Of a stretch of DNA of 36,715 bases, positions 7,208 through 32,723 are shown in pieces (positions within the stretch are counted from its first letter, which is position 1; each line of letters opens with the position of its first letter). This DNA is from Bacteroidota bacterium (lineage in GTDB: Bacteria; Bacteroidota; Bacteroidia; Chitinophagales; LD1): NCBI GenBank assembly GCA_947478005.1, contig CANJVG010000023.1, positions 1 through 36,715 on the forward strand, written 5' to 3'. Under the pieces are notes generated by a model, which saw only the letters and a list, made by a program, of their open reading frames with translations, was not told the DNA's origin and ran no database searches. A program made the translations under genes and the position numbers.

Positions 7208-7243
7208 CAATAGTTGTAGCAACAATTATCATTCTTATATTTG
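7208..7243 (+). promoter_or_regulatory. Operator-promoter module of the marR-type gene (copy 1)
   Basis: A dyad ATAGTTGT-agca-ACAATTAT (7210-7229; 7 of 8 positions symmetric) covers a -33-like TTG (7214-7216). A perfect -7 box TATATTTG (7236-7243) follows after 19 bp. The same module with the same spacing lies before the operon at 7788. Transcription would begin within a few bases of the ATG at 7248, suggesting a leaderless or nearly leaderless message. Binding of the MarR protein here is inferred. Confidence 0.7.
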
Positions 7244-7247
7244 CGGC

Positions 7248-7703
7248 ATGGCAAGCCTTCAGGAGGAAATCAAGCAGAATAAGAAATTTGAAAGCGAACA
7301 TCAGAAAGCCGCGATAAACATTCTTTACACCAGCAACTGGCTGTATAATATGAATGCAGCACGCCTTAAACAGCATGGTATTACTCCCGAGCAGTTTAAT
7401 GTACTCCGCATCCTTCGCGGCTCCTATCCGAAGCCTTTAATGCTAGGCGAAATAACCTGTCGCATGCTGGATAAATCCAGCAATGCTACTCGCTTGGTAG
7501 AGAAACTTCGGCAAAAAGGATGTGTAGAGCGGGAGCTTTGCGAAACCAATCGCAGGCAAGTAGATATTGTAATCACTCAAAAAGGATTAGCCCTACTCAC
7601 TAAAATAGATAATGAAGCCGATGACTGGAATGATTCAATCAAAACAATTACAAAAGCAGAGGCGCTGGAACTTAACCGAATACTGGATAAGTTAAGAATG
7701 TAA
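7248..7703 (+). CDS. MarR-family transcriptional regulator
   Basis: A 151-residue winged-helix regulator of the MarR type. Helices near the N-terminus form the dimer interface. Residues about 48-100 carry the winged helix, with recognition-helix sequence K-S-S-N-A-T-R-L-V-E-K-L, and the wing contains N-R-R-Q-V-D. Three cysteines (C71, C92, C98) lie in or beside the DNA-binding domain. MarR-type sensors such as OhrR or quinone-sensing YodB and MhqR relatives use cysteines or a ligand pocket to detect electrophiles, but which applies here is unknown. A copy of its likely operator lies before its own gene and another before the operon downstream, consistent with autorepression. Confidence 0.9.
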   Translation: MASLQEEIKQNKKFESEHQKAAINILYTSNWLYNMNAARLKQHGITPEQFNVLRILRGSYPKPLMLGEITCRMLDKSSNATRLVEKLRQKGCVERELCETNRRQVDIVITQKGLALLTKIDNEADDWNDSIKTITKAEALELNRILDKLRM

Positions 7704-7716
7704 AATTTTTTTGCAA

Positions 7717-7752
7717 CAATAGTTGTAGATACAAATATCATTACTACTTTTG
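7717..7752 (+). promoter_or_regulatory. Operator-promoter module of the pirin/dioxygenase operon (copy 2)
   Basis: Its first 26 bp match 7208-7233 at 23 positions by eye. The dyad ATAGTTGT-agat-ACAAATAT (7719-7738) covers TTG at 7723-7725, and 19 bp later comes the -7 box TACTTTTG (7745-7752), matching TAnnTTTG. A bound repressor would occlude the -33 element. The expected leader is about 30 nt before the ATG at 7788. Confidence 0.72.
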
Positions 7753-7787: not shown

Positions 7788-8180
7788 ATGAAACCAACAA
7801 TCACACAAGCACTTAAGGGTGCATTCATCAGCGGAGTAATCGCTTTAGTAGTAAACCAAATTTGGAGTTTTATTGCTTTACATTTTTTAAGCTCACTAGC
7901 ACCGGCTGGTCCTTGGCAAATTATGGTTGCAGTATCCTCCATCGTTCCATTACTATTGGGTGGAGTTGTTTACTTTCTTTTAGAAAAGTATACAAGCAAT
8001 GGGGCTAAAATATTTACCGGAATATCTGTAGTGCTAACGGTGTTAAGCATTTACGGAAATTTTCAACCGGTTCTGCCTGATGGCACAGCCACCCCTCAAG
8101 GTTTTGCCTTGTTAACAGTGCCAATGCACTTTGTGGCTGGTTTTGCAGCGGCATTTGGTATTCCTCGTTTCAGCAAATAA
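7788..8180 (+). CDS. DUF6069-like four-helix membrane protein
   Basis: A 130-residue protein with four hydrophobic segments (about 10-32, 44-65, 75-93, 105-125) joined by short loops and a short positive N-terminus. The pattern resembles small integral membrane proteins grouped as DUF6069; the family assignment is from memory and not certain. It is the first gene after the operator-promoter module and is 46 bp upstream of the first pirin gene. Function is unknown; its place in the operon suggests a role in the same stress response. Confidence 0.7.
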   Translation: MKPTITQALKGAFISGVIALVVNQIWSFIALHFLSSLAPAGPWQIMVAVSSIVPLLLGGVVYFLLEKYTSNGAKIFTGISVVLTVLSIYGNFQPVLPDGTATPQGFALLTVPMHFVAGFAAAFGIPRFSK

Positions 8181-8226
8181 TTGAAAGACGAGCTGAAGTT
8201 GTTTACACAATTGCAGACAAAACTTA

Positions 8227-8934
8227 ATGAAATACTTATTGCGACCAGATAAAGACAGATGGCATAAGCAGGATTCAATGAAGAAGAGCGCTTATGCCTT
8301 TGTTCCACACCAAACAAACTTTGGTGAGTTGTGTGGAATGGCCGATGATGTGGTTTATCCCGGGAAGGGTTTTGGAATGCACCCCCATGAAAACATGGAG
8401 ATCAGCACTATTGTAATTAGCGGTTCACAGGCTCATAGGGACAATACAGGAAGTGAAGGAGTCATATCAGGTAATTCTGTTCAAACCATGAGTGCCGGAA
8501 CCGGAATAATGCATAGCGAGTACAATGCATCGGATGTGGAACCCTTTCAAAGTTTTCAAATTTGGGTTTACCCCAAAGTTATGGGGGTGAAACCACGGCA
8601 CGAAAATTTCACTTATGAGGCGGTAGAAAAGCTAAATAAAATCTTGCTCACCCTTTCACCCGATAGAAGAGAAGGAACGGCATTTATTAATCAGGATGCT
8701 TTTTTTAGTGTATCAAAATTATTAAAAGGAAATACTGTTGAATACAAAATGAATAGGGCAACTAATGGAGTTTATGTTCATTGTGCCACCGGAAGTGTAA
8801 AAGTAGATGACTACACTTTGCGCGCAGGAGATGCCATAGGAGCATACGATGGGGATGTGGTCACCATTTGCGCTTTGTCCGATGCTGATTTAATTTTTGT
8901 TGAAGTTCCAATGCAACGTGGTGTAAATGTTTAG
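8227..8934 (+). CDS. Pirin-family bicupin protein (YhaK-like)
   Basis: A 235-residue cytoplasmic bicupin. The N-terminal cupin has the pirin metal site M-H-P-H (H52, H54), then M-H-S-E (H96, E98), 44 residues later as in human pirin. The C-terminal cupin (about 140-230) lacks an obvious metal site, as usual. The length fits the YhaK-type subgroup rather than the longer classical pirins. Bacterial pirins are variously reported as quercetin 2,3-dioxygenases or redox-responsive regulators of enzymes; which holds here cannot be told. The small receiver-like gene follows. Confidence 0.9.
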   Translation: MKYLLRPDKDRWHKQDSMKKSAYAFVPHQTNFGELCGMADDVVYPGKGFGMHPHENMEISTIVISGSQAHRDNTGSEGVISGNSVQTMSAGTGIMHSEYNASDVEPFQSFQIWVYPKVMGVKPRHENFTYEAVEKLNKILLTLSPDRREGTAFINQDAFFSVSKLLKGNTVEYKMNRATNGVYVHCATGSVKVDDYTLRAGDAIGAYDGDVVTICALSDADLIFVEVPMQRGVNV

Positions 8935-9001: not shown

Positions 9002-9358
9002 ATGAGCGATACATTAATACGAGAATTTAGAGCAGAAAGCGTGCATGCCCCGGTGATGGTTTTATTTGGAGGAAGCCCGAACAGAATGAATGAAGTAGTG
9101 ACGCTTATCAAGAATGCGGGAGGGATAACTGCAGTCGGTGCTTTTTCGGAGGAAGAAGGAATGCAATTATTAAAATCGTTTCCAAAAATTGATTTAATTT
9201 TAATAGGAGGAAGATATACGGAGGAACAGCGAAATAGAATTCGTGCCTATGTAAAACAGCATTTAGCAAACGCCCAAATAACTGAGCCTGGATACGACTA
9301 TCCTTATGAGAATTCGGAAATAATTAAAGACATACGGAAGAAATTAAATCTTAGATAA
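9002..9358 (+). CDS. Small receiver-like (CheY-fold-like) protein, function unknown
   Basis: A 118-residue protein. Residues about 15-95 have the alternating strand/helix pattern of a response-regulator receiver or flavodoxin-like fold (V-M-V-L-F-G-G, then a helix, then I-D-L-I-L-I-G-G-R-Y), but the phospho-accepting aspartate expected at the end of the third strand is absent (G-G instead). ATG at 9002 begins M-S-D-T-L. An in-frame ATG at 8927 overlaps the pirin gene by 8 bp and would add 25 hydrophobic residues. The TAA overlaps the next ATG by one base (TAATG), indicating coupled translation with the second pirin. Confidence 0.7.
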   Translation: MSDTLIREFRAESVHAPVMVLFGGSPNRMNEVVTLIKNAGGITAVGAFSEEEGMQLLKSFPKIDLILIGGRYTEEQRNRIRAYVKQHLANAQITEPGYDYPYENSEIIKDIRKKLNLR

Positions 9359-10230
9359 TGAAAAAGCAAATCGAAAAATTATTAAACCCTCCTGCTCCGC
9401 ATATGGTGGGAGATGGATTCCGGGTGCATAATTTCTTTCCTGGCCCGGAAGGTGAAATGACGCGCATGAGTCCATTCTTCATGATGGATTACGGAGCCAA
9501 GATTGAATTCCCCGCTTCGGAACATCAACGTGGCGTGGGTGTGCATCCACACCGCGGCTTTGAAACGGTTACACTTGCTTATGCAGGAAAAGTAGCACAT
9601 CATGACAGCGCAGGCAACAGCGGAGTTATAGGCGAAGGTGATGTGCAATGGATGACCGCAGCTTCGGGAGTCTTGCATAAAGAGTATCACGAGAAAGAGT
9701 TCTCCCGTAAAGGAGGCGCCTTCCAAATGGTGCAGTTGTGGGTGAACCTTCCTGCGAAGGATAAAATGAGCAAACCGAAGTATCAGGGTATTCTGGCAGA
9801 CCAAATGGGTAAATATATCTTGCCGGAAAATGGTGGGCGTGTAGATGTTGTTGCAGGTGAGTTTAAAGGAGTGAAAGGTGCAGCTTCAACGTTTACGCCT
9901 ATTCACGTTTACAATCTATATCTGAACAAAGGCGCGAAGTTTTCTTTCGAATTGCCGGAGAATTTCAACACAGGATTGCTTGTGGCGGAAGGTGAAGTAA
10001 TAGTGAATGATGAAAAGAATGTTCCGCTCGACCACTTCTTACTATTCAAAAATGCAGGAACAGAAATTACGGTGGAAGCATTGAGCGATGTAAAAGTTTT
10101 ATTGCTGAGCGGAGAACCGATTGATGAACCGATTATGGCTTATGGTCCTTTTCTGATGAACACGCGTGAAGAAATAATTCAAGCGTATGATGATGTGAAT
10201 AGTGGAAAGTTTGGAGTGTTAGAGGATTAA
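9358..10230 (+). CDS. Pirin-family protein (classical type)
   Basis: A 290-residue bicupin of classical pirin length. The metal site is H63 and H65 in V-H-P-H-R-G-F-E, with H107 and E109 in L-H-K-E-Y-H-E, matching the spacing of the Fe ligands in human pirin. The G-D-V-Q-W-M-T-A-A-S-G segment between them is the standard pirin signature. It is translationally coupled to the receiver-like gene. With the YhaK-like paralogue two genes upstream, the operon carries two distinct pirins, so the copies probably differ in role. The reaction is unproven; quercetinase activity is a family possibility. Confidence 0.93.
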   Translation: MKKQIEKLLNPPAPHMVGDGFRVHNFFPGPEGEMTRMSPFFMMDYGAKIEFPASEHQRGVGVHPHRGFETVTLAYAGKVAHHDSAGNSGVIGEGDVQWMTAASGVLHKEYHEKEFSRKGGAFQMVQLWVNLPAKDKMSKPKYQGILADQMGKYILPENGGRVDVVAGEFKGVKGAASTFTPIHVYNLYLNKGAKFSFELPENFNTGLLVAEGEVIVNDEKNVPLDHFLLFKNAGTEITVEALSDVKVLLLSGEPIDEPIMAYGPFLMNTREEIIQAYDDVNSGKFGVLED

Positions 10231-10279: not shown

Positions 10280-10840
10280 ATGAAAATTACGATTGTATCA
10301 GGAAGTCCTAGGAAAGAGAGCGTTACTGTACGCATTGCTAAATATCTACTGAAATACTTTTCAGATAAATACCCTGCTCATCAGTTTCAATTCGTGAACC
10401 TTCAAGACCATCAGATTCCGTTTGTAGAAAAAGTATGGAGCACCATTAATGATGTGCCGGAAGAGTTTAAGACAATGGCGGAAAAAATTTATTCAGCGGA
10501 TGCTTTTGTAATTGTTACTCCCGAATACAACGGCAGCATGTCGGCAGCGGCAAGAAATCTCTTCGATCATTTCCCAAAACAGAACAAAAAAGTATTTGGC
10601 ATTGTAACCGCGAGTGATGGAGTGATGGGAGGCATTCGCGCGGCCGTCAGTATGCAGAATCAAATTTGCGCTTGGTTCGGTATTCCATGTCCGCAAATGC
10701 TGGTGGTAGGTAACATGTCGCAGCGCTTTGACGCTAATGGATGTTTGGTCGAGGAGAAGTTTTCAAACAACATCATGAGCTTCTGTAATGAGTTTATTTG
10801 GCTTTCGGAAGCAGTAGTAAGCAAAAAAGGCGGGCAATGA
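10280..10840 (+). CDS. NAD(P)H-dependent FMN reductase / quinone reductase-like
   Basis: A 186-residue flavodoxin-fold protein of the NADPH-dependent FMN reductase family (azoreductase/chromate- and quinone-reductase relatives). The phosphate-binding loop S-G-S-P-R-K-E-S is at 7-14 and the flavin-contacting T-P-E-Y-N-G-S at 80-86. Members reduce quinones, azo dyes or flavins with two electrons, matching a detoxification role next to pirins and a ring-cleaving dioxygenase. It follows the pirin after 49 bp and overlaps the next gene by 4 bp (ATGA). Confidence 0.9.
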   Translation: MKITIVSGSPRKESVTVRIAKYLLKYFSDKYPAHQFQFVNLQDHQIPFVEKVWSTINDVPEEFKTMAEKIYSADAFVIVTPEYNGSMSAAARNLFDHFPKQNKKVFGIVTASDGVMGGIRAAVSMQNQICAWFGIPCPQMLVVGNMSQRFDANGCLVEEKFSNNIMSFCNEFIWLSEAVVSKKGGQ

Positions 10841-11343
10841 AAATACTGAAAAAGGTTTTTATCGGGTTGTTAGTTGTGTTGATTGTAGTGCAATTCTATC
10901 ATCCAGAAAAGAATAGCTCCGCTACTGTTTCTCCAAACAATATTGCAACTGTATTTGCCACTTCCGAAGAAGTGAAAACTATTTTAGCGACAAGCTGCAA
11001 CGACTGCCACAGCAACAACACCATCTACCCTTGGTATAATAATATTCAGCCGGTAGCTTGGTGGCTCAACCATCATATCAATGAAGCGAAACATGAATTA
11101 AACTTTGATGAATTCGCTACGTATAGTCCTCGCAAAAGGTATAATAAACTTAAAGAGACAGAGAAACTGGTAAATGAAAACGAAATGCCCCTTTCTTCTT
11201 ACACGCTAATTCATCGCAATGCCGTTCTTTCTGAGCAGCAAAAACAAGTGTTAGTTGACTGGACAAAAAATATCCGCAAGGAAATGGAATCTAAGTATCC
11301 GATGGATAGTTTACTTCGACCAAAACAAAAACCAACTATATGA
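10837..11343 (+). CDS. Haem-binding domain protein (c-type, membrane-anchored)
   Basis: A 168-residue protein. Residues 5-20 form an N-terminal hydrophobic anchor or signal. The covalent haem site C54-N-D-C57-H58 is followed by the S-N-N-T-x-Y-P-W-Y pattern and a Q-P-V-A-W-W-L-x-x-H segment characteristic of the Bacteroidota haem-binding domain (Haem_bd). It is probably exported to the periplasm and carries one c-type haem. ATG at 10837 overlaps the preceding stop by ATGA, and the next gene overlaps this stop in the same way, so three genes are translationally linked. A role in electron transfer is inferred. Confidence 0.88.
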   Translation: MKILKKVFIGLLVVLIVVQFYHPEKNSSATVSPNNIATVFATSEEVKTILATSCNDCHSNNTIYPWYNNIQPVAWWLNHHINEAKHELNFDEFATYSPRKRYNKLKETEKLVNENEMPLSSYTLIHRNAVLSEQQKQVLVDWTKNIRKEMESKYPMDSLLRPKQKPTI

Positions 11344-11756
11344 TTAGAAAAATACTCTCCACAAAAATTAATGATTCTCAAGTGAACGCCTCATTGCTCA
11401 TTCTGCGCTTAACAGCCGGTATTTTAATGGCGCATCATGGCTATGGCAAACTCACTAACTTCGACAGCATTGAGCCCAAGTTCATGGAGTTCCTCGGGTT
11501 GAGCAAAGCTATTTCTTTGGGCTTAGTGGTGTTTGCCGAGTTTTTCTGCTCGCTGCTTTTAATTGTCGGCATGGCCACTCGCTTTGCACTCATTCCATTG
11601 ACTATCACCATGTTGGTAGCTGTTTTTCAAGCACACAAAGGCGAAATTTTTGGGGATGGACAAACTGCGTTCCTCTACCTTGCTATTTACGTTACGCTGC
11701 TGTTGAAAGGGGCGGGCAAGTATAGTGTCGATGCTTTCCTCTTCAATAAAGAATAA
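11340..11756 (+). CDS. DoxX-family membrane protein
   Basis: A 138-residue membrane protein with four hydrophobic helices. The first helix contains L-R-L-T-A-G-I-L-M-A-H-H-G-Y-G-K-L, the DoxX signature; G-L-V-V-F-A-E-F-F is in the second. DoxX proteins are subunits of terminal oxidases in some archaea and are found in bacteria with thiol or catechol stress genes. ATGA overlap with the haem-binding protein gene supports a functional pairing of haem protein and DoxX. The dioxygenase gene starts 5 bp downstream. Confidence 0.9.
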   Translation: MIRKILSTKINDSQVNASLLILRLTAGILMAHHGYGKLTNFDSIEPKFMEFLGLSKAISLGLVVFAEFFCSLLLIVGMATRFALIPLTITMLVAVFQAHKGEIFGDGQTAFLYLAIYVTLLLKGAGKYSVDAFLFNKE

Positions 11757-11761
11757 GTTTT

Positions 11762-12646
11762 GTGCAGCGAATTGATTTCCTTCGGAATTCTCTTCTAACC
11801 CTTATCAGCATGTCATCATTACACGAACTACATAAGTTTTCGGAGTCGCTTCCTCCTGAAGAGAAGAAGATGCCATTGCTCTTTGTGGGTCATGGTTCAC
11901 CAATGAACGCGATAGAAGACAATGAGTTTTCGCAACGGTGGTTTAAGATGGGCAAAGAAATTCCTCAGCCGAAAGCGGTATTGTGCATCAGTGCGCACTG
12001 GCTTACTGGCGGCACGCACGTTACTGCGATGGAACATCCCGAAACGATTCATGACTTTGGTGGTTTTCCGAAAGCGTTGTTTGATGTGCAATATCCTGCT
12101 CCGGGAAATCCAGCATTGGCCGGTGAAGTGAAGGAGTTAATCAAAAGTACTGATGTTGGTTTGAATCACGATTGGGGTTTGGACCACGGCACTTGGAGTG
12201 TGGTGAAGCGGATGTATCCCGATGCGAAAATCCCCGTTTTACAATTGAGTATTGACTACAACAAGCCTGCACAATATCATTTCGATTTGGCGAAAGAACT
12301 TTCAGCACTGCGCAAAAAAGGTGTGCTGATTATCGGTAGCGGAAACATGGTGCATAATCTGCGGATGGCGGCCTTTGACAAAATGAACGTTGACAATTTT
12401 GGTTTTGATTGGGCACACGAAATGAATTCAGTTTTCAAGAAGAATATTTCGGAACGCAATTTTTCTTCCCTGATTAATTACGAAAGTCTCGGTGCCGGAG
12501 CCAAACTCGCTATCCCTACTCCTGACCATTATTACCCGATGATTTATTCGCTTGGCTTGATTAAGAAGAACGATGAAGTTTCTTTCTTTAACGATAAAGC
12601 TGTGGCCGGTTCGCTTACCATGACTTCGTTTAAGGTGACAGCATAA
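11762..12646 (+). CDS. ygiD: 4,5-DOPA dioxygenase extradiol-like (LigB superfamily)
   Basis: A 294-residue member of the YgiD/LigB class III extradiol dioxygenases, which open catechol-type rings. Candidate metal ligands are H44 (G-H-G-S-P) and H79 (S-A-H-W), 35 residues apart as in E. coli YgiD, with later histidines in G-N-M-V-H-N-L and P-T-P-D-H-Y-Y. The GTG at 11762 is preferred to ATG at 11810, because the resulting M-Q-R-I-D-F-L-R-N-S-L-L resembles the R-x-D-F-L leader of Bacteroidota homologues. It closes the operon. A truncated second copy of its last 51-56 codons lies at 14360-14530. Confidence 0.88.
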   Translation: MQRIDFLRNSLLTLISMSSLHELHKFSESLPPEEKKMPLLFVGHGSPMNAIEDNEFSQRWFKMGKEIPQPKAVLCISAHWLTGGTHVTAMEHPETIHDFGGFPKALFDVQYPAPGNPALAGEVKELIKSTDVGLNHDWGLDHGTWSVVKRMYPDAKIPVLQLSIDYNKPAQYHFDLAKELSALRKKGVLIIGSGNMVHNLRMAAFDKMNVDNFGFDWAHEMNSVFKKNISERNFSSLINYESLGAGAKLAIPTPDHYYPMIYSLGLIKKNDEVSFFNDKAVAGSLTMTSFKVTA

Positions 12647-12853: not shown

Positions 12854-14350
12854 ATGCAAAAAAGTTTTACTCTTTCTGTGGCCGCTGCTAAGCCGCTGTT
12901 ATTTCTCGCTCTTTTTTTTGTTACTCTAATCAGTCATGCACAAACACAAAAAGGTACCGACATCAATGGCTCAGCTGTAAATGACGGTCTGGGCAATTCG
13001 GTTAGTATGCCCGATGCCAATACTATTGCTGTTGGCGCGCCTACCGAACTCGGAACACTGGCTCCCGGTTCGGTAAAAATTTACACCTGGAATGGCAGTG
13101 CATGGGTGCAGAAGGGTTCCACCCTTATCGGTGAAGCAAACGGTGACCGCTTTGGCTGGAAGGTAAGCATGCCCGATGTAAATACCATAGCCGTTGGCGG
13201 AATTACCAATTCAGGAGCAGCTGAAAATGCAGGGCACGCGCGAGTTTTTACCTGGAACGGCAGTGCATGGGTGCAGAAAGGTGCGGATATTGATGGAGAG
13301 AATATCTATGATTTTTTTGGTGCTTCTATCAGCATGCCCGATGCCAATACAGTAGCTATTGGTTCGCAAAACCACAGCAATGTAAATGCAGATTACGGAG
13401 GACAAGTAAAAATTTATACCTGGAGCGGAAGCGCATGGGTGCAAAAAGGCTCTTCCATTGAAGGGGCTAACGTATCTGACCTTTTGGGCTCTGCGGTAAG
13501 TATGCCCGATGCCAATACGGTAGGTGTGGGAGCCCCCGGTGATTTTACAGCGGTAAGTACCAACGGCTATGGAGCTGTTTTTAGCTGGAGCGGTACTGCC
13601 TGGTTGCAGAAAGGAACCAATATTGCCGGAGAAGCAGATGAAGATAATGAGGGCTACTCAGTAGATATGCCCGATGCCAATACTATAGCCTTAGGTGCTA
13701 TTGGCAACGATGGTGGCGGAGCAGATGCAGGACAGGTACGGGTTTTTACATGGAATGGTTCGGCATGGATAAAAAAGGGCGGAGATATACTGGGCGCAGC
13801 AGCCGGTGACCGAATGGGGTATTCGGTAAGTATGCCCGATGCCAATACGCTGGCGGTGGGTGCAGCGGAGACTGACGGCAATGGAACAGATGCCGGACAG
13901 GTAAGGGTATATGCCTGGAACGGCTCTGCCTGGACATTGAAGGGAACTAATATTAATGGCGAAGCAGCAGGTGATAACATGGGTGGTGCCGTAAGCATGC
14001 CCGATGCCAACACAGTTGGTACAGGGGCGCCTAAGAACGATGGTGGCGCTAGCAATGCAGGCCAGGCAAGGGTTTATTATTATGGCGCTACAGGTATTAA
14101 CGAAACTTTGTTGAGCAATGTATCTGTTTACCCTAACCCTACTATTGAAGAGGTTACTCTTGATTTGGGGCAAAGCTTTACAGATGTAACGGTTACCGTA
14201 ACCAATACACTGGGGCAGGAAATAAATAAACAGCAGCTAAACACTACTGACAAATTCACCATTTCGATAAATGATAAAGCGGGCCTTTACTACGTTGCTG
14301 TTACTTCGGGTAGTATGGTGGTGGCAAGAGCCCGGGTGTTGAAGCAATAG
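12854..14350 (+). CDS. Seven-bladed beta-propeller T9SS secreted protein
   Basis: A 498-residue secreted protein. Residues 1-29 are a signal peptide ending S-H-A. Seven consecutive repeats of 53-57 residues follow (about 35-415), each with K-G-x-x-I-x-G, S-M-P-D-A-N-T, and W-N-G-S-A-W-x-Q, which fits a seven-bladed FG-GAP-like propeller. The C-terminal about 75 residues (V-Y-P-N-P, then G-L-Y-Y-V and a basic end) are a T9SS type A sorting domain, so it is exported across the outer membrane. The S-M-P-D-A-N-T block is nearly identical in DNA in all repeats, suggesting recent expansion or gene conversion. The ligand is unknown. Confidence 0.9.
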   Translation: MQKSFTLSVAAAKPLLFLALFFVTLISHAQTQKGTDINGSAVNDGLGNSVSMPDANTIAVGAPTELGTLAPGSVKIYTWNGSAWVQKGSTLIGEANGDRFGWKVSMPDVNTIAVGGITNSGAAENAGHARVFTWNGSAWVQKGADIDGENIYDFFGASISMPDANTVAIGSQNHSNVNADYGGQVKIYTWSGSAWVQKGSSIEGANVSDLLGSAVSMPDANTVGVGAPGDFTAVSTNGYGAVFSWSGTAWLQKGTNIAGEADEDNEGYSVDMPDANTIALGAIGNDGGGADAGQVRVFTWNGSAWIKKGGDILGAAAGDRMGYSVSMPDANTLAVGAAETDGNGTDAGQVRVYAWNGSAWTLKGTNINGEAAGDNMGGAVSMPDANTVGTGAPKNDGGASNAGQARVYYYGATGINETLLSNVSVYPNPTIEEVTLDLGQSFTDVTVTVTNTLGQEINKQQLNTTDKFTISINDKAGLYYVAVTSGSMVVARARVLKQ

Positions 14351-14359
14351 AATGCCTGT

Positions 14360-14530
14360 GGAAATTACAAAAGCCTTGGTGCCCCTGCCCAACTCGCTAT
14401 CCCTACTCCCGACCACTATTATCTGATGATTTATTCGCTCGGCTTGATTGAGAAGAGCGATGAGGTTTCCTTCTTTAACGATAAGGCTGTGGCCGGTTCG
14501 CTTACCATGACTTCGTTTAAGGCGGAGTAA
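14360..14530 (+). pseudogene. 3' remnant of a second dioxygenase (ygiD) gene
   Basis: Fifty-six in-frame codons ending in TAA match the last codons of the dioxygenase at 11762-12646. Over 51 codons I count 17 base differences in 153 (about 89% identity), nine of the changed codons being synonymous. P-T-P-D-H-Y-Y and the F-N-D-K-A-V-A-G-S-L-T-M stretch are kept. The upstream part, including the first two metal ligands, is missing; the propeller gene ends 9 bp before. It is probably what is left of a tandem copy replaced by the propeller gene. No start codon or promoter serves it. Confidence 0.88.
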
Positions 14531-32130: not shown

Positions 32131-32574
32131 GTGCAAAGACTGTTTTGATTTCAGAACACCCGATGTAAATCCGTGCAAAGGCCGTTTTGATTTCAGAACG
32201 CCTGATGTAAATCCGTACAAAGCCGTTTTGATTTCAGAACGCCTGATGTAAATCCGTACAAAGCCGTTTTGATTTCAGAACACCCGATGTAAATCCGTAC
32301 AAAGGCCGTTTTGATTTCAGAACGCCTGATGTAAATCCGTACAAAGGCCGTTTTGATTTCAGAACACCCGATGTACATCCGTGCAAAGGCCGTTTTGATT
32401 TCAGAACACCCGATGTACATCCGTGCAAAGGCTGTTTTGATTTCAGAACGCCCGATGTACATCCGTACAAAGGCCGTTTTGATTTCAGAACGCCCGATGT
32501 ACATCCGTGCAAAGGCCGTTTTGATTTCAGAACGCCCGATGTACATCCGTGCAAAGGCCGTTTTGATTTCAGAA
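32131..32574. repeat. 42-bp tandem repeat array, about 10.5 copies
   Basis: GTTTTGATTTCAGAA recurs at 32142, 32184, 32225, 32266, 32308, 32350, 32392, 32434, 32476, 32518 and 32560: spacing 42 bp, except two 41-bp steps where one G is lost. Copies 1-5 contain GATGTAAATC. Copies 6-10 contain the perfect palindrome GATGTACATC. Copy 11 diverges after the first part. There are no unique spacers, so it is not a CRISPR. Because the unit is 14 codons, long minus-strand frames arise; they are considered artefacts. Confidence 0.9.
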
Positions 32575-32723
32575 GACAGGCTGTCCATAGCTCCAAGTTC
32601 GATGCCTTGACGTGTTCATTGGAGCTTTTGCAGGGGCTGTAGTTGGAGCGCGGAAGTAGCAATAGCGAAAAGAAGAGTGTACAAGCAGCTGGTGAAGGAG
32701 TAAATCTCAATACATACAAAACG

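Follow-up and report, generated by a model that had tools for sequence, protein, structure and literature searches.

A conserved, probable operator–promoter module ahead of a marR gene and an adjacent pirin–dioxygenase operon in a Bacteroidota genus

In the contig analysed here (the window, i.e., the whole stretch of 36,715 nucleotides of Bacteroidota DNA), two near-identical stretches accompany a gene for a MarR-family regulator, one lying upstream of the gene itself and the other upstream of an operon encoding pirins, an FMN reductase and an extradiol dioxygenase. This raises the question of whether the linked MarR protein acts on its own gene and on the operon via these stretches, as had been proposed in a sequence-only reading of the same DNA, and how far its regulon would extend.

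Probable operator–promoter modules, marR and the operon

Recounting of the letters revealed 23 identical positions out of 26 between 7208-7233 and 7717-7742, in agreement with the sequence-only reading, and both stretches contain the dyad ATAnTTGT-N4-ACAAnTAT, each being an exact match to ATANTTGTNNNNACAANTAT. The claimed spacing of exactly 19 bp between the TTG and the TAnnTTTG box was found at both modules (Table 1). Both sites conform with the -33/-7 promoter of Bacteroidota, where TAnnTTTG is combined with a -33 element upstream and the consensus is TTTG/TANNTTTG (PMC6847099). The -33 part comprises TTG only, the preceding base being G (GTTG) versus T in the published TTTG; the -33 motif was weak in the Flavobacterium johnsoniae study (PMC6847099). 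As judged by sequence, the 20-bp dyad at the promoter of marR itself is of the kind described for MarR-family operators, which are palindromes of 16-20 bp (PMC6798810). The upstream operator (O1) is located directly 3' of the stop codon of an amidase gene and the downstream operator (O2) directly 3' of that of marR.

Table 1. Positions of operator, promoter and gene features in the window.
Feature	Position	Strand	Details
O1 operator dyad, upstream of marR	7210..7229	+	ATAGTTGT-AGCA-ACAATTAT; exact match
TTG of -33 element, within O1	7214..7216	+	19 bp before -7 box
-7 box of marR promoter	7236..7243	+	TATATTTG; TAnnTTTG
Predicted transcription start, A of marR ATG	7248	+	-7 box G at -5, as in F. 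johnsoniae
marR, MarR-family regulator, 151 aa	7248..7703	+	PF01047 and fold matches
O2 operator dyad, upstream of operon	7719..7738	+	ATAGTTGT-AGAT-ACAAATAT; exact match
TTG of -33 element, within O2	7723..7725	+	19 bp before -7 box
-7 box of operon promoter	7745..7752	+	TACTTTTG; TAnnTTTG
DUF6069 protein, first gene of operon	7788..8180	+	PF19545
Pirin 1 (Pirin + Pirin_C_2)	8227..8934	+	PF02678, PF17954
118-aa protein, no Pfam match	9002..9358	+	ORF open from 8927; tblastn matches in three relatives
Pirin 2 (Pirin + Pirin_C)	9358..10230	+	PF02678, PF05726
NADPH-dependent FMN reductase	10280..10840	+	PF03358
Haem-binding domain protein	10837..11343	+	PF14376 (scanned from 10840)
DoxX	11340..11756	+	PF07681
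LigB-type 4,5-DOPA-extradiol-dioxygenase	11810..12646	+	PF02900; NF007914 320.8 bits vs. cut-off 233

The assignment of the regulator to the MarR family is based on matches of the winged-helix domain to PF01047 (35.3 bits; cut-off 24.6) and PF12802 (30.9 bits; cut-off 27) and on its predicted fold. A model built from four sequences was of moderate confidence (mean pLDDT 69.5) and served solely for the fold search, the single-sequence model being poor (58.7). For the 50 Foldseek matches listed, which we take to be MarR-type regulators, TM-scores of about 0.5-0.67 with high rmsd were obtained. The protein contains cysteines at positions 71, 92 and 98 only, conserved within the genus in 10/17, 1/17 and 17/17 proteins, respectively. 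Of 24 more distant proteins, 18 share Cys98, which is, therefore, no specific mark of a thiol sensor; accordingly, thiol or redox sensing is not claimed.

Downstream of O2, eight same-strand genes were found, as counted in the earlier reading, starting with DUF6069 and ending with the LigB/DODA extradiol dioxygenase gene (Table 1). In four relatives (L044-L046 and L048), a YceI gene lies between DUF6069 and the pirins, corresponding to 8181-8226, where it is missing here; the own genome is devoid of an operon YceI gene, but its unlinked YceI lipoprotein gene bears the operator. In its 3' part, the dioxygenase gene contains a 160-bp piece (12476-12635) that recurs at 14363-14522 (89%), and this copy is situated behind a FG-GAP/Por_Secre_tail gene (12854-14350), a layout as if that gene had arrived together with a partial duplication. 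Within the same FG-GAP-type secreted protein gene, a unit of ~165 bp occurs in seven copies (12968-14028). At 32193-32588, overlapping ORFs of the two strands contain repeated SEIKTAF-type peptide units, which apparently reflect a tandem-repeat region.

Occurrence and conservation of the sites

A scan of the whole 4.0-Mb genome with the exact dyad returned two matches, O1 and O2. In a Markov simulation of 20,000 intergenic stretches of 110 bp, the exact site was obtained in none and a site with up to two mismatches in 0.35%. At loose thresholds, no excess was seen, neither in the window (three sites with up to three mismatches versus 2.79 expected) nor in the own genome (28 sites with up to two mismatches versus 31 for the reversed pattern). 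The case, therefore, is carried by the exact, paired and promoter-placed sites together with their conservation; on single-genome sequence statistics, it would have stayed undecided. Because the two-mismatch scan gave no excess over the reversed pattern, single weak sites were left out of the argument, and the one-mismatch sites of the own genome on contigs C7 and C168 were set aside, both lying within ORFs.

Extending the exact scan to 30 genomes of the family yielded 18 sites in 11 genomes, all of them in the own genus, with the reversed control giving none in the 30 genomes. Sixteen of these sites precede marR, the operon, a YceI lipoprotein gene or, at an RND pump operon, the membrane-fusion gene; the other two were rated as background, one being within an ORF (G175, contig C44) and one ~165 bp before an ORF of 877 aa (G178, contig C63). 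With one mismatch, the 18 genus genomes gave 85 sites versus 28 for the reversed pattern (row sums).

The marR region could be compared in 17 of the 18 genus genomes, the own one included, since G163 lacked a match at E ≤ 1e-20. The conservation test suggested in the sequence-only reading, i.e., a search for the dyad upstream of orthologous marR-pirin clusters, came out positively within the genus: at all 17 loci, 0-2 mismatches were counted both in the best site upstream of marR (O1) and in the best one up to 200 bp behind it (O2). Mean pairwise identity of the arms was 0.84 for O1 and 0.82 for O2; over the 30 bp flanking each site upstream, it was 0.36 and 0.58, and for the N4 spacer 0.51 and 0.84. 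For O2, the flanks are thus fairly conserved and the spacer equals the arms in conservation. As the arms contain the TTG of the -33 element, part of their conservation could be promoter conservation, although the -33 motif was weak in F. johnsoniae (PMC6847099). TAnnTTTG was found at exactly 19 bp in 15/17 loci for O1 and, equally, in 15/17 for O2, the perfect box being missing in two loci per site; L056 has nothing resembling it at this spacing for O2. The spacers of O1 and O2 differ within most genus genomes, so that recent duplication does not seem to be the origin of the pairs.

The sites were also followed across changes in gene content. By tblastn with nine queries, at least one pirin was detected behind marR in 18/18 loci examined, one of which (L060) is from outside the genus. 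The first recognised gene behind O2 varies by species, being DUF6069, YceI, a pirin 1-like gene or pirin 2, and O2 keeps close to marR despite this change (the gap was measured from the end of the aligned part and is overstated where the protein is longer). L043 retained marR and O1 (one mismatch); none of the nine operon queries matched there, and the best site behind marR had five mismatches, i.e., O2 is missing. In L045, O1 was retained and the upstream amidase was not found. L060 has O1 with two mismatches and no O2, its pirin gene starting ~10 bp or less after marR. In L052, a third dyad (one mismatch) precedes the YceI gene of the operon. As read from these sequences, the operator tracks the regulon rather than the neighbouring gene.

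The promoter geometry also bears on the marR transcript. The -7 element of F. johnsoniae extends from T-12 to G-5 (PMC6847099), and applying this geometry here places +1 at base 7248. By this analogy, the marR mRNA may be leaderless, its first base being that of the start codon. A gap of 4 nt separates the -7 box from the marR ATG (7236-7250) and recurs in relatives; TAnnTTTG ended 4 or 5 nt ahead of the start codon chosen for marR in 10/17 genus loci, in 5/60 distant loci (four of 64 having been dropped) and, in the same loci, in 7/536 other ORFs. In Flavobacterium psychrophilum, leaderless messages made up 5.5% of the mRNAs examined (PMC9723704). The leaderless message was absent from the sequence-only reading and is added here as a prediction.

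Across the order, 236 of 298 genomes contained MarR matches at E ≤ 1e-20. A more distant set, beyond the genus, comprised 64 loci with MarR proteins of 43-62% identity, including second copies from genomes already counted; a YceI gene lies within 4.5 kb of marR in 30 of these loci. The shorter dyad [AT]TGTN4ACA[AT] was found in the roughly 120 bp upstream of marR in 23/63 distant orthologues (24/64 before omission of L141, where marR starts at the contig edge and the listed dyad is a slicing artefact), as against 12/339 of the remaining ORFs at these loci; in random stretches, a control that includes coding DNA, the frequency was 1.75%. Upstream of marR, 40/63 distant loci were without such a dyad; the arrangement is, therefore, not universal. 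Among ORFs starting within 700 bp after marR, 10/39 had a related dyad upstream. In several loci (L180, L149, L173 and L081), a second dyad of this kind closely follows marR and precedes YceI, DoxX or pirin genes. With related dyads both upstream of and behind marR in distant loci, the marR-operator arrangement looks old, and the genus operator would be an extended version of it. Where [AT]TGTN4ACA[AT] dyads occur in tandem within 130 bp upstream of marR, their starts are exactly 15 bp apart in 10/10 loci (L056, L061, L062, L063, L064, L070, L157, L158, L160 and L174), a fixed spacing which is no whole number of helical turns.

Proposed regulon and mechanism, and rival explanations

The statement that two modules define the regulon proved too narrow, as an unlinked YceI lipoprotein gene of the own genome (contig C92) has a dyad with one mismatch that is kept in its orthologues. 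By eye, this site runs into a TATTTTTG box. Orthologues at E ≤ 1e-20 were found in 7/18 genus genomes, the own one included, and all seven carry the dyad upstream (0, 1, 1, 1, 2, 2 and 3 mismatches). The RND membrane-fusion gene was found in 13/18 genus genomes and its site was judged in 12, L131 being not assessable. The dyad was present in six of them (0, 0, 0, 1, 1 and 3 mismatches), with L101, L103, L105, L108 and L113 having it exactly or with one mismatch, and was absent in the other six, among them the own genome (L123). The family of the pump protein was assigned by scanning one relative, L121. On this sequence evidence, the RND pump is a lineage-dependent member of the regulon and not a member in the own genome.

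The central proposal, that the linked MarR acts on itself and on the operon via the operator–promoter modules, is strongly supported by conservation; what we infer is that the protein binds the sites, represses rather than activates, and allows induction in response to quinones/catechols or to envelope stress. Very probably, judging from the sequence, the 151-aa protein represses its own gene and, from a second operator, the operon next to it, both units being induced when a ligand releases the protein and YceI belonging to the regulon. A MarR dimer would sit on each ATAnTTGT-N4-ACAAnTAT dyad, over the -33 region of the housekeeping (-33/-7) promoter, and would block RNA polymerase at marR (O1) and at the pirin-FMN reductase-haem-binding-DoxX-dioxygenase operon (O2). 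A ligand would free MarR from the DNA, resulting in joint induction of both units, and the same dyad would bring the unlinked YceI lipoprotein gene under this control.

Another regulator might bind the dyads, such as the second MarR paralogue of the genome, leaving the linked MarR as a bystander. The own genome does contain two MarR matches at E ≤ 1e-20, the orthologue and this paralogue, and the MarR domain is common to paralogues. However, six genomes (G027, G115, G127, G132, G160 and G181, some of the assemblies being incomplete) have both dyads and a single match, the orthologue, at this threshold; four paralogue loci (L076-L079) showed no dyad upstream; and the 12 family genomes of other genera lack the exact dyad, although 10/12 have a MarR match (42-49% identity for the eight listed with identity). 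We consider a bystander role improbable. Similarly small is the chance that MarR functions from these sites as an activator or dual regulator instead of a repressor. Activating MarR proteins exist, and by eye the RND-pump site of relatives is placed some way upstream of the promoter box; O1 and O2, however, cover the -33 element itself, and these positions on promoter elements, together with that of the own YceI site, favour polymerase exclusion.

It is very unlikely, finally, that the dyads represent terminators, hairpins in the transcript or mere promoter sequence kept by descent only, even if they directly follow the stop codons of the amidase gene and marR. Their arms are AT-rich and without a T run, the flanks are more diverged than the arms, and the dyad, rare in the genome, recurs upstream of unlinked YceI and RND genes; moreover, O1 persists without the amidase (L045), and O2 is missing where the operon is missing (L043).

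Regarding the signal of the proposed MarR switch, the gene set of pirins with a quercetinase-type domain, FMN reductase, extradiol dioxygenase, DoxX and YceI suggests quinones, catechols or other phenolics, by analogy with the MhqR/QsrR regulons of Staphylococcus aureus. Oxygen and low iron induce two pirin genes of Bacteroides fragilis (PMC11304471), making an oxygen or iron signal a further possibility. These signals, like the release by an electrophile put forward in the sequence-only reading, are candidates.

Comparison with known MarR systems

Among the known systems nearest to this one is the quinone-sensing MhqR of S. aureus and Bacillus subtilis, a repressor of the MarR type whose own operon carries an operator; together with QsrR, MhqR controls ring-cleavage dioxygenases and quinone reductases (PMC12893000, PMC6798810) and is reported to work without a thiol mechanism (PMC6798810). 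Its operator, however, is a 9-9 bp repeat, TATCTCGAA-aTCGAaATA, at -6 to +12 (PMC6798810), which was not found at the two window sites when read directly; here, the dyad is ATAnTTGT-N4-ACAAnTAT over -33. A close sequence relation was not seen either, the S. aureus MhqR chain 9qdr being a generic match (E 4.8e-6, 29.6 bits) and at rank 34 in the fold search. Identity with MhqR was rejected, as operator and scores do not fit.

The NCBIfam MarR subfamilies HpaR, BilQ and MprA share the MarR domain and match weakly. Xanthomonas HpaR was at rank 2 in the fold search, and identity with HpaR was rejected from 40.2 bits for TIGR02337 (cut-off 121.2); BilQ (35.3 versus 125) and MprA (32 versus 157) were far below the subfamily cut-offs. 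The efflux-linked repressors E. coli MarR and S. aureus MepR were among the fold matches, and the dyad before the RND-pump operon of some relatives resembles their setting, unlike the own pump gene, which is without dyad. OhrR, a thiol-based hydroperoxide sensor, has its sensing cysteine N-terminally; no such residue is present among the three cysteines of the window protein.

Among the literature matches listed, mainly open-access, no paper described a MarR regulon of this gene set in its title or the start of its abstract. From the sequences, the regulon is larger than the earlier reading stated. We propose tentatively, and with somewhat less than even confidence, that this MarR lineage regulates stress responses throughout the order and is a functional counterpart of MhqR with an operator code of its own, with a leaderless repressor mRNA in the genus. 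If this is true, the regulon would comprise pirins, YceI, DoxX, FMN reductase, extradiol dioxygenase and, in some species, the RND pump. With a repressor mRNA starting at the start codon, operator, promoter and start codon would form one compact unit of ~40 bp. The conserved operator makes the regulon readable from genomes and links pirins, YceI and DoxX, all of them poorly understood, to a common response within a lineage of Bacteroidota. The kind of system is familiar and ordinary, namely a well-conserved MarR switch.
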